From NCBI GenBank assembly GCA_009784745.1, contig WQXR01000002.1:1-33875 (forward strand): a stretch of 33,875 bases of DNA, in the 5' to 3' direction. Source of the DNA: Methanomassiliicoccaceae archaeon (GTDB lineage: Archaea; Thermoplasmatota; Thermoplasmata; Methanomassiliicoccales; Methanomethylophilaceae). The notes below the pieces were generated by a model. That model worked only from the letters and a program-made list of their open reading frames with translations, had not been told where the DNA came from and ran no database searches. Numbering within the stretch: the first letter of the stretch is position 1; each line of letters starts with the position of its first letter. The position numbers and the translations under genes are program-made. Positions 2,930 through 9,490 of the stretch are shown here, piece by piece.

Positions 2930-3121
2930 CAGATATTTGAAAATATGGAATGAGGAGCATTCGGCGGATCCTTCACAGTATGACATCAATTATCAGTTAA
3001 CATTAAATACTACAAAACTCAGAATATCACCTATTCAGAGAAACTGTTTAATATAGGCACTAAAATTAAATACGGTTCCGCGGATAACACAGCAAGCATA
3101 TAATCAATGCAGGCGATAATT

Positions 3122-4510
3122 ATGGCAGCAGCAAAACCCTTATCGGTGTTCGAAGTGTACGACAGATTTCAGAACGGTAAAAAAGTAAGGGAGGAGATAT
3201 GGGATTATTCCACTATACCGGAGAACGCCGCCGCATTCAAAGAGAAATATAAATTAAGATTCGGGAAGAACGTAATTCCTGAAGATAAGGACATCAAGAA
3301 CCGTTTGTTCAACGCAGGAGTGGAGATGCTCGTCGAAACGGGATTCTTCAATCCCGATATCGGAAGGGTGATGTACATAACCGAATCAGAGATATTCGAA
3401 GGATTGAAGAGATCAACGAAAAGATTAAGATTGGGTACAGGAAGGGAAGAGGTCATATGCGGCCGCCGCCACGGTAACAGTTCCGTGAGGCCGGTGATAC
3501 AAGGCGGACCCACCGGTACACCTGTATCGGAAGATGTTTTCGTACCTATGATGCAGGCGTATGCACAGGAATCCATGATCGATACGCTGGCAAGCGGTGT
3601 CATGGCAACGATAGAAGGTCATCCTGCAACAGCAAATACGCCGTGGGAGATCAAAGCGACACTTGCCGAGATAAGATCAATAAAAGAGGGAATGATACGT
3701 GCCGGACGCCCCGGAATGGGGATCAAGGGGCCGGATACTCCGCTTTCCGCGGCCGGAAGGCTCATATCGGGATCGGGATCGGGAACGGGTCTCGCTCGGA
3801 ACGATCTTCATTTGTGTTCGCAACTGAACGAACTGAAGATGGACATGATGGGACTGAACGTGATAGCGGGATGGGCATCGGACGGCGATACCGTAATGGT
3901 TGAACAGATGCCGATGTTCGGCGGTTACTGCGGCGGTATCGAGGAAACGGCGATATGCAGCGTCGCAACAACACTTGCATCGGCGGCGCTGTTCGATGCC
4001 GATATACACTTGGACGGTACGATCAACATGAGCCTCGGTATTACAACGGCAAGAGAAGCGTTACAGATAGCAGCCCACGTCGCAGCAGCGATGGATGCGA
4101 ACACGGACATGCTTCTTGCCAATCAGTATTACACAGCCGCAGGCCCGTGCACAGAAATGTGCCTGTTCGAGGTCGCGGCGCAGGCGATATGTGATACAGC
4201 GTCAGGAAGAGAACTGATATCCGGTACCGCGTCAGCAAAAGGTATCGCAAGGGACAAGACAACACCGCTGGAAGCGAAGATGATGGCCGAATCATCGGCA
4301 GCGGCGGCAGGTATGAAGGTAACGGAAGTGAATCACATACTCGATATAATCATCCCAATGTACAGCGAAGGATTCCCGCAGCCGCCCAAAGGCAAGCGTT
4401 TTCAGGACTGTTATGACCTGAGAACGGTAACGCCGTCTGAGGAATATTTAGGGATATATGACAAAACAATACTGTCGTTGAAGGAGATAGGTCTCGATAT
4501 CAGATATTAA
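3122..4510 (+). CDS. mtmB: MtmB-family monomethylamine methyltransferase paralog with Lys (AAG, 3725-3727) at the Pyl202 position
   Basis: ORF 3107..4510; co-linear with the Pyl-encoding MtmB in this window. 'GRPGMGI-K-GPDTPLSAAG' aligns to 'GRPGLAI-O-GPETPLSAAG'. With start at ATG 3122 the Lys is residue 202. Confidence 0.9.
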   Translation: MAAAKPLSVFEVYDRFQNGKKVREEIWDYSTIPENAAAFKEKYKLRFGKNVIPEDKDIKNRLFNAGVEMLVETGFFNPDIGRVMYITESEIFEGLKRSTKRLRLGTGREEVICGRRHGNSSVRPVIQGGPTGTPVSEDVFVPMMQAYAQESMIDTLASGVMATIEGHPATANTPWEIKATLAEIRSIKEGMIRAGRPGMGIKGPDTPLSAAGRLISGSGSGTGLARNDLHLCSQLNELKMDMMGLNVIAGWASDGDTVMVEQMPMFGGYCGGIEETAICSVATTLASAALFDADIHLDGTINMSLGITTAREALQIAAHVAAAMDANTDMLLANQYYTAAGPCTEMCLFEVAAQAICDTASGRELISGTASAKGIARDKTTPLEAKMMAESSAAAAGMKVTEVNHILDIIIPMYSEGFPQPPKGKRFQDCYDLRTVTPSEEYLGIYDKTILSLKEIGLDIRY

Positions 4511-4694: not shown

Positions 4695-4710
4695 CTTGCT
4701 AGGGATCAGC

Positions 4711-5856
4711 ATGAAAATAGCAATAGTCGGCGGGGCGCTCCAAGGCATGGAGGCGGTATATCTTGCAAAGAAAGCAGGATTCAAAACGCTCGTATTAGAT
4801 AAAAGCAACAATGCGCCTGCGTTCTCGATGTCCGATGAATTCGAAACGATCGATATACTTGAAAGAGAGAGCGACGCGAGAAAGATATTCAGGAAATGTG
4901 ATGCCGTATTACCGGCATGCGAAAACATGAGAGCATTATTGAAATTGGATGAGATGTTCCGATATTCGGATATTCCTTTACTGTTCGACATGCGTTCTTA
5001 TAAGATATCATCGTCAAAGAACGCATCCAACGCCATGATGGAAAAGATAGGGATACCTATGCCGAAGAAATGGCAGGAATGCGATCTTCCCGTCATCGTA
5101 AAACCGTCGTCACAAAGCGGAAGCGTCGGTGTCACAGTTGCTTACACCAAGGACGAACTGAACGAAGGGATACGCAAAGTAATGGGTCTCGGCGATGAGC
5201 CGGTGATACAGGAATTCGTCCGCGGAAAGAATGTATCCGTCGAGGTCATAGGCGACGGCGAGGAATTCCGATCTTTCGTTACCACGGAAATAATGTTAAG
5301 CAAGGATCGTGACTGCAAAAGAGTAAAGTGCTCACCAGAAATTCTCAGCGAACAAAGAGAGCAGGAATTCAAAAGGATCGCGGAAAGAACGGCAAGAAGC
5401 ATCGATCTGAGATCGCTGATGGATGTTGAGGCGATAGAAACGAAGAACGGACTGAAAGTATTGGAAATAGATGCGCGCATCCCAAGCCAAACGCCGGCCG
5501 CGGTATTGGCGGCCACAGGCATCAATCTGCTGGAAGAGATGATACATCCGTCATCGGCGGTAAATGAAGGAAAGGCATCGTCGTATGAACATTTTATCGT
5601 AAGATATGGAAAGATGATGACCTGCGGCGAAAAGGAATTCGCCAATGTCCGTGATCCTAAGATCATCCGCGGACTGTTCGGCGCGGACGAGATGATAACC
5701 GATCATGAGAACGGATCCAATATATGGAGATGTACGATGATAAATTCCGCCGCCGATGAAAAAGAGCTGGAAAAGAAACGTGCCAGATGTATAAACGCAA
5801 TAATAAAAGAATGCGAAATATACGAATTCGCCGACGAGTCGCCGGCTATATCGTGA
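4711..5856 (+). CDS. pylC: PylC, 3-methyl-D-ornithine--L-lysine ligase (ATP-grasp)
   Basis: 'MKIAIVGGALQGMEAVYLAKKAGFKTLVLDKS', 'VEVIGDGEEF', 'LMDVEAIETKNGLKVLEIDARIPSQTPA' match recalled PylC; directly follows tRNA-Pyl. Confidence 0.93.
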   Translation: MKIAIVGGALQGMEAVYLAKKAGFKTLVLDKSNNAPAFSMSDEFETIDILERESDARKIFRKCDAVLPACENMRALLKLDEMFRYSDIPLLFDMRSYKISSSKNASNAMMEKIGIPMPKKWQECDLPVIVKPSSQSGSVGVTVAYTKDELNEGIRKVMGLGDEPVIQEFVRGKNVSVEVIGDGEEFRSFVTTEIMLSKDRDCKRVKCSPEILSEQREQEFKRIAERTARSIDLRSLMDVEAIETKNGLKVLEIDARIPSQTPAAVLAATGINLLEEMIHPSSAVNEGKASSYEHFIVRYGKMMTCGEKEFANVRDPKIIRGLFGADEMITDHENGSNIWRCTMINSAADEKELEKKRARCINAIIKECEIYEFADESPAIS

Positions 5857-5913: not shown

Positions 5914-7110
5914 TCAGATCATCGGCTCTTCATTCTTTATGAAATCCGCATCATCGCTGAACAGTTCGTCATCACACATGCATCCGCGGGTCATCTTCAG
6001 TACAATTCCGGAAACGATCCCCAGCGAAAGCGCAGCAACGAATACAATGAGACCAACCGCAATGTTAGCCAATGCCCAGTTGACAGCGCCGTAGAGCAGC
6101 ATTACCAATGATGATGCGGCAACACCCACCCATCCGGCGACGCCGTGCAGATTATGGACACCCATGACATCCCTCGCTCCCAGCCAATCACAAAGCCGCG
6201 GCTGCAGATATATGAACGATAAAGCGGAAACAATACCCGCAACAATACCTACGGCAAGAGCAGCCCACGGTCCGACCATCAGGAGAGGCGCACCTATTGC
6301 AACAGGGCCCGCAAGCATTGCATACGTGTATACAAGCGGATCCACCTTCTTCTGTATCTTATAACAAACGATCCATGCGCTTATCACGGAACCGATACCG
6401 GCAAGATAGCAGGTGATCATTCCGATCGTCACAAGATCCATCGGAAGCAAAGCGGTAACGAACGCAGGCCAAAGCACCCACAGCAACATTGCCGCAAGCC
6501 ATACGAATGAGACGCTGTGTGTTGTCGTATACATCGGTTCTTTGAATGTTCTTTTCTCCCTCAATGCAACAGCAACACCAAGACCAAAGTATGCGGCGCA
6601 CATGTGCACCAGTATGGATCCTCCTGGATCCTGCGCAAATGCTCCGAATAACGTCACATTTCCGATGAACCATTCTATAAGCACGTAAGAAGGTGCGAAA
6701 AGTATCCCTATCAAAAGATATTGCCACATCTTCACCGTTCCGAGGAAACAGCCTATCGCTATCACCAACGTTATAGAACATATCACCGCGCCAAGCATCA
6801 GATCTTGGTTCCACGCGTCTTTGAAATATACGTCATGAATGAACAGATACACAACAAAACTTCCCGCCGCCGCCAGAAGTACTGCGAGAGCAACACCCCA
6901 TTCATACTTTTTCACGAATATCATCAGGAACGCGACGAGCATCAGCATGAACCATATCATCACGTTCTTCACGAACTTGAGGTTCTCCCAGACCTCATCA
7001 TGTACCGCCGCCGGCCCGCCTGTTCCCGGGATACCGGAAAAGAAGAACAGGAGGGCTGCGGCAACGGTAAACAGAATGACGAAACATAATATTTTCAAAT
7101 CGATCTTCAT
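5914..7110 (-). CDS. Rh/Amt-family ammonium (methylammonium?) transporter
   Basis: 398 aa, polytopic; 'GGSILVHMCAAYFGLGVA' and 'GVHNLHGVAGWVG' are Rh-type twin-His motifs; directly downstream of mtmB. Confidence 0.85.
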   Translation of the reverse strand: MKIDLKILCFVILFTVAAALLFFFSGIPGTGGPAAVHDEVWENLKFVKNVMIWFMLMLVAFLMIFVKKYEWGVALAVLLAAAGSFVVYLFIHDVYFKDAWNQDLMLGAVICSITLVIAIGCFLGTVKMWQYLLIGILFAPSYVLIEWFIGNVTLFGAFAQDPGGSILVHMCAAYFGLGVAVALREKRTFKEPMYTTTHSVSFVWLAAMLLWVLWPAFVTALLPMDLVTIGMITCYLAGIGSVISAWIVCYKIQKKVDPLVYTYAMLAGPVAIGAPLLMVGPWAALAVGIVAGIVSALSFIYLQPRLCDWLGARDVMGVHNLHGVAGWVGVAASSLVMLLYGAVNWALANIAVGLIVFVAALSLGIVSGIVLKMTRGCMCDDELFSDDADFIKNEEPMI

Positions 7111-9222: not shown

Positions 9223-9416
9223 GCCCCGGAACCTGTGACCAGTATCCGGGGCCCGATCGCGGGCGACAGAAGGCGGTCTCACCGAACATGTACAAAGAAC
9301 AGCATCTCCAACGATGCGCAGCTTTGAGGAAACATGGCTTTTTCCATTCCCGATGCTGTTTCTGTCATACATTTCATCGGTACGAGAGTATTACTCTACC
9401 GACACGCCCTCAAAGC
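9223..9416 (-). ncRNA. Structured 5' leader of mtmC with candidate pseudoknot (possible cis-regulatory RNA)
   Basis: Perfect 9-bp pairings GCUUUGAGG(9416-9408)/CCUCAAAGC(9329-9321) and AACAGCAUC(9360-9352)/GAUGCUGUU(9306-9298) are interleaved; plus hairpins UCGGUA-GAGU..ACUC-UACCGA (about 9401-9376) and GCCCCGGA/UCCGGGGC (9223-9252). Confidence 0.5.
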
Positions 9417-9480
9417 CAAAGGATAGATTAGATATCTAATATATAATTGTATCTAATTTACTATCATTTTAATATTAACA

Positions 9481-9490
9481 TGTATATAAA
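9481..9490 (-). promoter_or_regulatory. TATA box (TTTATATACA) for the mtmC operon
   Basis: AT-rich region upstream of the mtmC leader. Confidence 0.5.

Follow-up and report, generated by a model that had tools for sequence, protein, structure and literature searches.

Does the segment in front of the monomethylamine operon mtmCB of this Methanomassiliicoccaceae archaeon give rise to a regulatory RNA, and if so, how would it act? Natural riboswitch regulation of mRNA translation had not been reported for Archaea (PMC3942078, 2014), and half-life work in Methanosarcina indicates strong control by mRNA degradation, the elements of which are not known (PMC5112694). The mtm leader is a concrete candidate for such an element in a methyl-reducing lineage. 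It is short, its start is defined, its helices lend themselves to disruption and repair, and it serves a single target operon. The analysis follows up a sequence-only reading of the window (the whole stretch of DNA that was analysed, 33,875 nucleotides), in which a new pseudoknotted, cis-regulatory leader RNA had been proposed at this position.

Position, promoter and helices of the mtm leader

The leader and the genes behind it are located on the minus strand. In the order of transcription the features are as follows:

9447-9440 (-): promoter TATA box ATTATATA, which sets the leader start; spacing conserved in 7/7 leaders
9417-9408 (-): P1 5' strand GGCUUUGAGG, predicted mRNA 5' end; 13/13 conserved around the strand in three genomes; partner 9321-9329
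9402-9377 (-): P1a hairpin UCGGUA GAGU AAU ACUC UCG UACCGA; same place in six leaders
9372-9352 (-): P2 5' arm, containing AACAGCAUC (9360-9352); covaries with 9288-9306
9351-9338 (-): purine-rich part of the P2 loop, GGGAAUGGAAAAAG; purine/A-rich in related leaders
9337-9317 (-): invariant loop core CCAUGUUUCCUCAAAGCUGCG; 21/21 in three genomes
9329-9321 (-): P1 3' strand CCUCAAAGC; 9 perfect pairs (11 with G-U) to 9408-9417
9317-9302 (-): P3, alternative local hairpin GCAUC..GAUGC, competing with the P2 5' arm; read from the sequence itself
9306-9288 (-): P2 3' arm, containing GAUGCUGUU (9306-9298); covaries with 9352-9372
9278-9269 (-): 3' strand of P0, GACCGCCUUC, which can pair with the mRNA 5' end (GAGGGCG-GUC, 9401-9411) in place of P1
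9268-9262 (-): UGUCGCC, able to pair with the ribosome-binding site GGUGAU (pair probability ~0.7 in the window)
9252-9223 (-): P4, GC-rich hairpin GCCCCGGA..UCCGGGGC upstream of the ribosome-binding site
9202-9197 (-): ribosome-binding site GGUGAU of mtmC; GGUGA kept among mtmC leaders
9193-8552 (-): mtmC, monomethylamine corrinoid protein with two B12-binding Pfam domains; mtmB next
8547-7162 (-): mtmB with in-frame amber codon (pyrrolysine); PF05369, 777 bits

In archaeal promoters a TATA box at such a distance places the start of transcription at the P1 5' strand. The 3' end of the octamer ATTATATA lies 22 nt before GGCTTTGAGG in the window and 22-24 nt before the P1 5' strand across all seven leaders, and because this spacing recurs in every copy the mtmCB mRNA probably begins with the P1 5' strand, as judged from promoter geometry. 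A start at this strand gives a leader of ~224 nt and not one of 260-300 nt, as had been estimated from TATA boxes at 9481 and 9524. These TTTATATA boxes are real (9532-9525 and about 9488-9481), but the conserved spacing belongs to the box at 9447-9440.

The pairings that the sequence-only reading had named are all present on the minus strand and in H-type pseudoknot order. GCTTTGAGG (= GCUUUGAGG) at 9416-9408 is exactly complementary to CCTCAAAGC at 9329-9321 (P1), and AACAGCATC at 9360-9352, inside the span of P1, is exactly complementary to GATGCTGTT at 9306-9298 outside it (P2). The two additional hairpins, UCGGUA..UACCGA and GCCCCGGA..UCCGGGGC, were recovered too. The local pairing of GAUGC with GCAUC can form as well, but its labels had been swapped, as 9317-9313 reads GCAUC and 9306-9302 reads GAUGC. 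Read by eye, a similar P3-like competition is seen in one close relative (G046, see below) and a weaker one in two others (G030 and G020).

The hairpins P1a and P4 have counterparts in the relatives. In six leaders a hairpin of unrelated sequence lies 20-23 nt into the folded leader at the place of P1a, and the place of P4 is likewise occupied by a hairpin of different sequence; as the arms of both were picked from the folds, this positional test is partly circular and supportive only. The pairing of UGUCGCC with the ribosome-binding site is also present in G030 and is not general among the leaders.

Conservation and covariation within one genus

In a DNA search the element turned up in two relatives from the window's own genus, G046 (JAIRJQ010000056.1, MAG Aly426_bin2) and G030 (WQZJ01000080.1, MAG Lab288P1bin1), both Methanomassiliicoccaceae; going by sample names, termite guts are the apparent source of these nearest sequenced relatives. 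In the window, G046 and G030 alike, the leader lies behind the same DNA polymerase B gene. Reading of the regions upstream of mtmC added G020, G008, G059 and, less surely, G004. The leader is therefore found in six genomes of one genus, upstream of mtmC or, where mtmC is missing, of mtmB, and a doubtful seventh copy with a possible CUUUCCU-tipped long hairpin lies in G004, which belongs to another genus.

A covariance model built from three leaders recovered the mtmC leaders of G020 (E 0.005), G059 (0.03) and G008 (2.7). When 146 genomes were searched with it, only the mtm leaders of this genus were credible, with one copy per genome, and the same was obtained with laxer filters in 28 genomes; copies at other methyltransferase genes were searched for in the same way and none was credible. 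DNA and pattern searches of 147 genomes of the order plus public genomes returned the leaders of this genus alone, and the remaining matches (a Bartonella, a thorarchaeon and coding matches) were taken as chance. In the other genera of the family the regions upstream of mtmC differ, are mostly AT-rich and have no core. Rfam gave nothing credible, neither for the window at the gathering score nor for the leader at E up to 10, and as far as Rfam and the searched literature show the leader is previously undescribed.

In the three closest leaders conservation is confined to the two P1 strands and the surrounding loop: the P1 5' region is identical at 13/13 positions and the loop core at 21/21, compared to 33/126 elsewhere. 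Within the loop, GUUUCC(U/C) is kept in six leaders and reads CUUUCCU in the seventh. P2 shows the opposite pattern, as its sequence has changed almost wholly among the relatives while the pairing was retained. In an alignment-free permutation test, which took as P2 simply the sequences on either side of the core, the true assignment of the arms was the best of 5040 permutations. Two-sided changes affect 12 of 29 P2 pairs in three leaders, matched by none of 500 shuffles. In six leaders they affect 15 of 29 (again 0/500), counted in the model-based alignment A4, which was fitted to the structure and is hence biased towards it; it was preferred to a whole-leader MAFFT alignment of the six, in which the arms were aligned too badly to count pairs. 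Sliding the P2 partners lowered the cells paired from 81-83% to 37-52%. The comparative base of these counts is six or seven sequences, all but one from one genus.

A lack of covariation among homologous leaders had been named beforehand as evidence against the RNA element, and compensatory changes in P2 were found instead. Together with the conserved placement and promoter spacing they support a new cis-acting structured leader RNA well. From the comparison of sequences the mtm leader is real and conserved, with a narrow distribution, and we are highly confident that it is a functional cis-acting RNA.

Folding energy is less informative. For the 251-nt region the folding energy is -99.5 kcal/mol and the z-score -4.4. 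The last 230 nt before mtmC reach z-scores of -5.2 in the window, -5.1 in G046 and -4.9 in G030; in the more remote leaders the values are -3.1, -2.3, -1.9 and -0.5. Unrelated regions upstream of mtmC in other genera (G021, G037 and G122; loci L137, L120 and L151) have z-scores of -7.2, -5.8 and -4.6. Folding energy alone is therefore indecisive, because a few unrelated mtmC upstream regions of the family score as low. These low scores are also what could be said for a fold without function that arose by chance in GC-rich DNA between genes, but covariation over six genomes and the fixed position relative to promoter and gene make such a fold extremely improbable.

The conserved stretches could also be read at the level of DNA, with the inverted repeat GGCTTTGAGG / CCTCAAAGC acting as an operator that binds a transcription factor. 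The repeat units are indeed the only conserved DNA apart from the TATA box. However, P2 covaries as base-paired RNA, and TTGGCTTTGAGG, with one mismatch allowed, is no commoner in the genomes of the genus than its reversed control, so that there is no sign of a regulon. With pairing maintained in P2 and no enrichment of the half-site, the operator was rejected, and we assign it a very low probability.

Also rejected was a leader peptide (MFPQSC...) that would start from the AUG of the conserved loop and control mtmC via ribosome stalling or coupling. ATG TTT CCT CAA AGC TGC is present in three genomes and GTG TTT CCT CAA in a fourth, but the start codon is replaced by ACG in G008 and G059 and by GTC in G004, a stop follows after three codons in G059 and G004, the peptides behind the core are unrelated and differ in length, and third codon positions show no less conservation than the other two. 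Since neither start codon nor reading frame is kept, such an attenuator is highly unlikely.

Competing pairings and possible modes of action

For the pseudoknot as a whole the support is uneven. P2 is supported throughout, and P1 in three genomes: the P1 duplex amounts to ~-17 kcal/mol in the three closest leaders, in which it is invariant, but in G020, G008, G059 and G004 it is no better than in shuffled loops. The 5' strand of the mRNA can alternatively pair with a strand after P2 (P0), as GGCUUUGAG does with CUCAGAGCC in G030. Minimum-energy folds contain P0; its swap test was marginal (p = 0.05), and it was not accepted as a universally conserved alternative. P1 and P0 are mutually exclusive and lie within about 3 kcal/mol of each other; the net difference of the forced P1 state to the free fold is -3.2, +1.3 and -1.9 kcal/mol in the three leaders. 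P3 in addition competes with the upper P2 stem. A bistable leader is thus compatible with the sequences.

Whether this amounts to a switch is another matter. The predicted access to the ribosome site is the same in both states and not unusual among mtmC leaders, and sequestration of this site was dismissed as a common mechanism, because the pairing partners differ between leaders. Of the mutually exclusive switch proposed earlier, the competing helices stand, but no change in predicted ribosome-site access goes along with them. It is possible, though rather doubtful, that P1 and P0 form a true regulated switch. Somewhat more doubtful still is the full version of this idea, namely that the mtm mRNA opens with a novel archaeal RNA switch, its first nucleotides flipping between the P2-loop pseudoknot and a closing helix and thereby controlling monomethylamine use in response to some small molecule or protein.

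In a metabolite riboswitch the P1/P2 pseudoknot, the invariant loop and the purine-rich strand would bind a small molecule (corrinoid, methylamine, Pyl or other) and P0, P3 and P4 would serve as expression platform. The pseudoknot order, the invariant 21-nt loop, the near-equal energies of mutually exclusive helices and a catabolic operon as target agree with this. Known riboswitches offer parallels: cobalamin riboswitches occur in leaders of corrinoid-related genes and show loop pairing, as the mtm leader does, and in H-type pseudoknots of the preQ1 type the 5' strand pairs into the loop of the following hairpin, as here. However, the cobalamin families in Rfam do not match (window at the gathering score, leader at E up to 10), and in difference to the preQ1 type L1 of the mtm leader holds a whole hairpin, P2 is long and Rfam gives no match. 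The element is moreover limited to one genus, one operon and one copy per genome, and is thus not broadly distributed. Beyond the three closest leaders the loop shrinks to GUUUCC(U/C) or CUUUCCU and P1 is not significant, and the predicted folds show no consistent expression platform. A general corrinoid sensor does not fit the narrow distribution, because other corrinoid genes would be expected as sites too, and the retention of the leader in G046 before an mtmB gene with neither amber codon nor mtmC is of no help to Pyl or corrinoid sensing. None of the computed results supports a riboswitch or any of the ligands corrinoid, methylamine and Pyl, and we regard the riboswitch as unlikely.

Lower yet we rate the leader as a docking site for an RNA acting in trans or for an RNA-binding protein, with the loop GUUUCCUC as recognition site and the remainder as scaffold. 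The loop is the sole sequence kept across all leaders, and in Methanosarcina mazei an sRNA network controls the expression of methylamine methyltransferases (PMC3510493), which provides a precedent. But it does not account for why the P1 5' strand is conserved in three genomes.

Since evolution has kept the shape and not the sequence, the leader probably governs the lifetime of the message or the efficiency of its translation. We propose that the structured ~224-nt 5' leader of the mtmCB messenger acts in cis after transcription start. The 5' end of the mRNA would be held in one of two ways, inside the P2 loop (P1) or paired to the strand behind P2 (P0), and would in this way be hidden from a 5' exonuclease, while the invariant GUUUCC loop would be presented to a protein or RNA partner. 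The leader could thereby tune lifetime and translation of a message that is needed abundantly when methylamine is available. To this 5'-end-locking role, which needs no ligand, we give about even chances.

There are precedents for such a role in methanogens. In M. acetivorans a structured aptamer in the 5' UTR led to a 2.5-fold gain in expression without tetracycline (PMC3942078). According to the excerpted text of PMC5378194, mtaA and mtaC mRNAs of cold-adapted methanogens carry long 5' UTRs that contribute to transcript stability; these are likewise long leaders of a corrinoid-protein/methyltransferase message with a proposed stability effect. In contrast to the mtm leader they belong to other genes and another order, no covarying pseudoknot is described in this excerpt, and the likeness is one of description. 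The leader of the Methanosarcina CO dehydrogenase/acetyl-CoA synthase genes likewise acts on a methanogenesis operon by post-initiation control (Anderson et al. 2009, as cited in the excerpted text of PMC5112694), but the gene is unrelated to mtm and the likeness again lies in the description.

Genes behind the leader

The mtmC of the window is 80-84% identical to the mtmC of the same genus. In G004 (C1, 612660-614687, minus strand) mtmC is 82% identical to that of the window, compared to 66-69% for the other members of its own genus; an identity so far above that of its own genus suggests, on sequence grounds, that it was acquired by horizontal transfer.

In G046 mtmC has been lost and the leader now lies directly before mtmB. 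This mtmB (C101, 8626-9960, plus strand; L099) lacks both the amber codon and the stretch GPETPLS that is usually found. The gene may be decaying or altered in function.

An ammonium transporter gene (5914-7110, minus strand) directly follows mtmB in the window, which fits the ammonium released from monomethylamine. The window also contains a second mtmB (3107-4510, plus strand) adjoining a pylC-like gene (4696-5856); it has no amber codon and a lysine at the usual pyrrolysine position (GIKGPDTPLS). Copies of mtmB without the amber codon are also present in G030 (C59) and G059 (C164), and the amber codon is kept in G008, G020 and on contig C36 of G046. A non-Pyl homologue of MtmB, MtqB, acts on tetramethylammonium and choline (PMC13044021).
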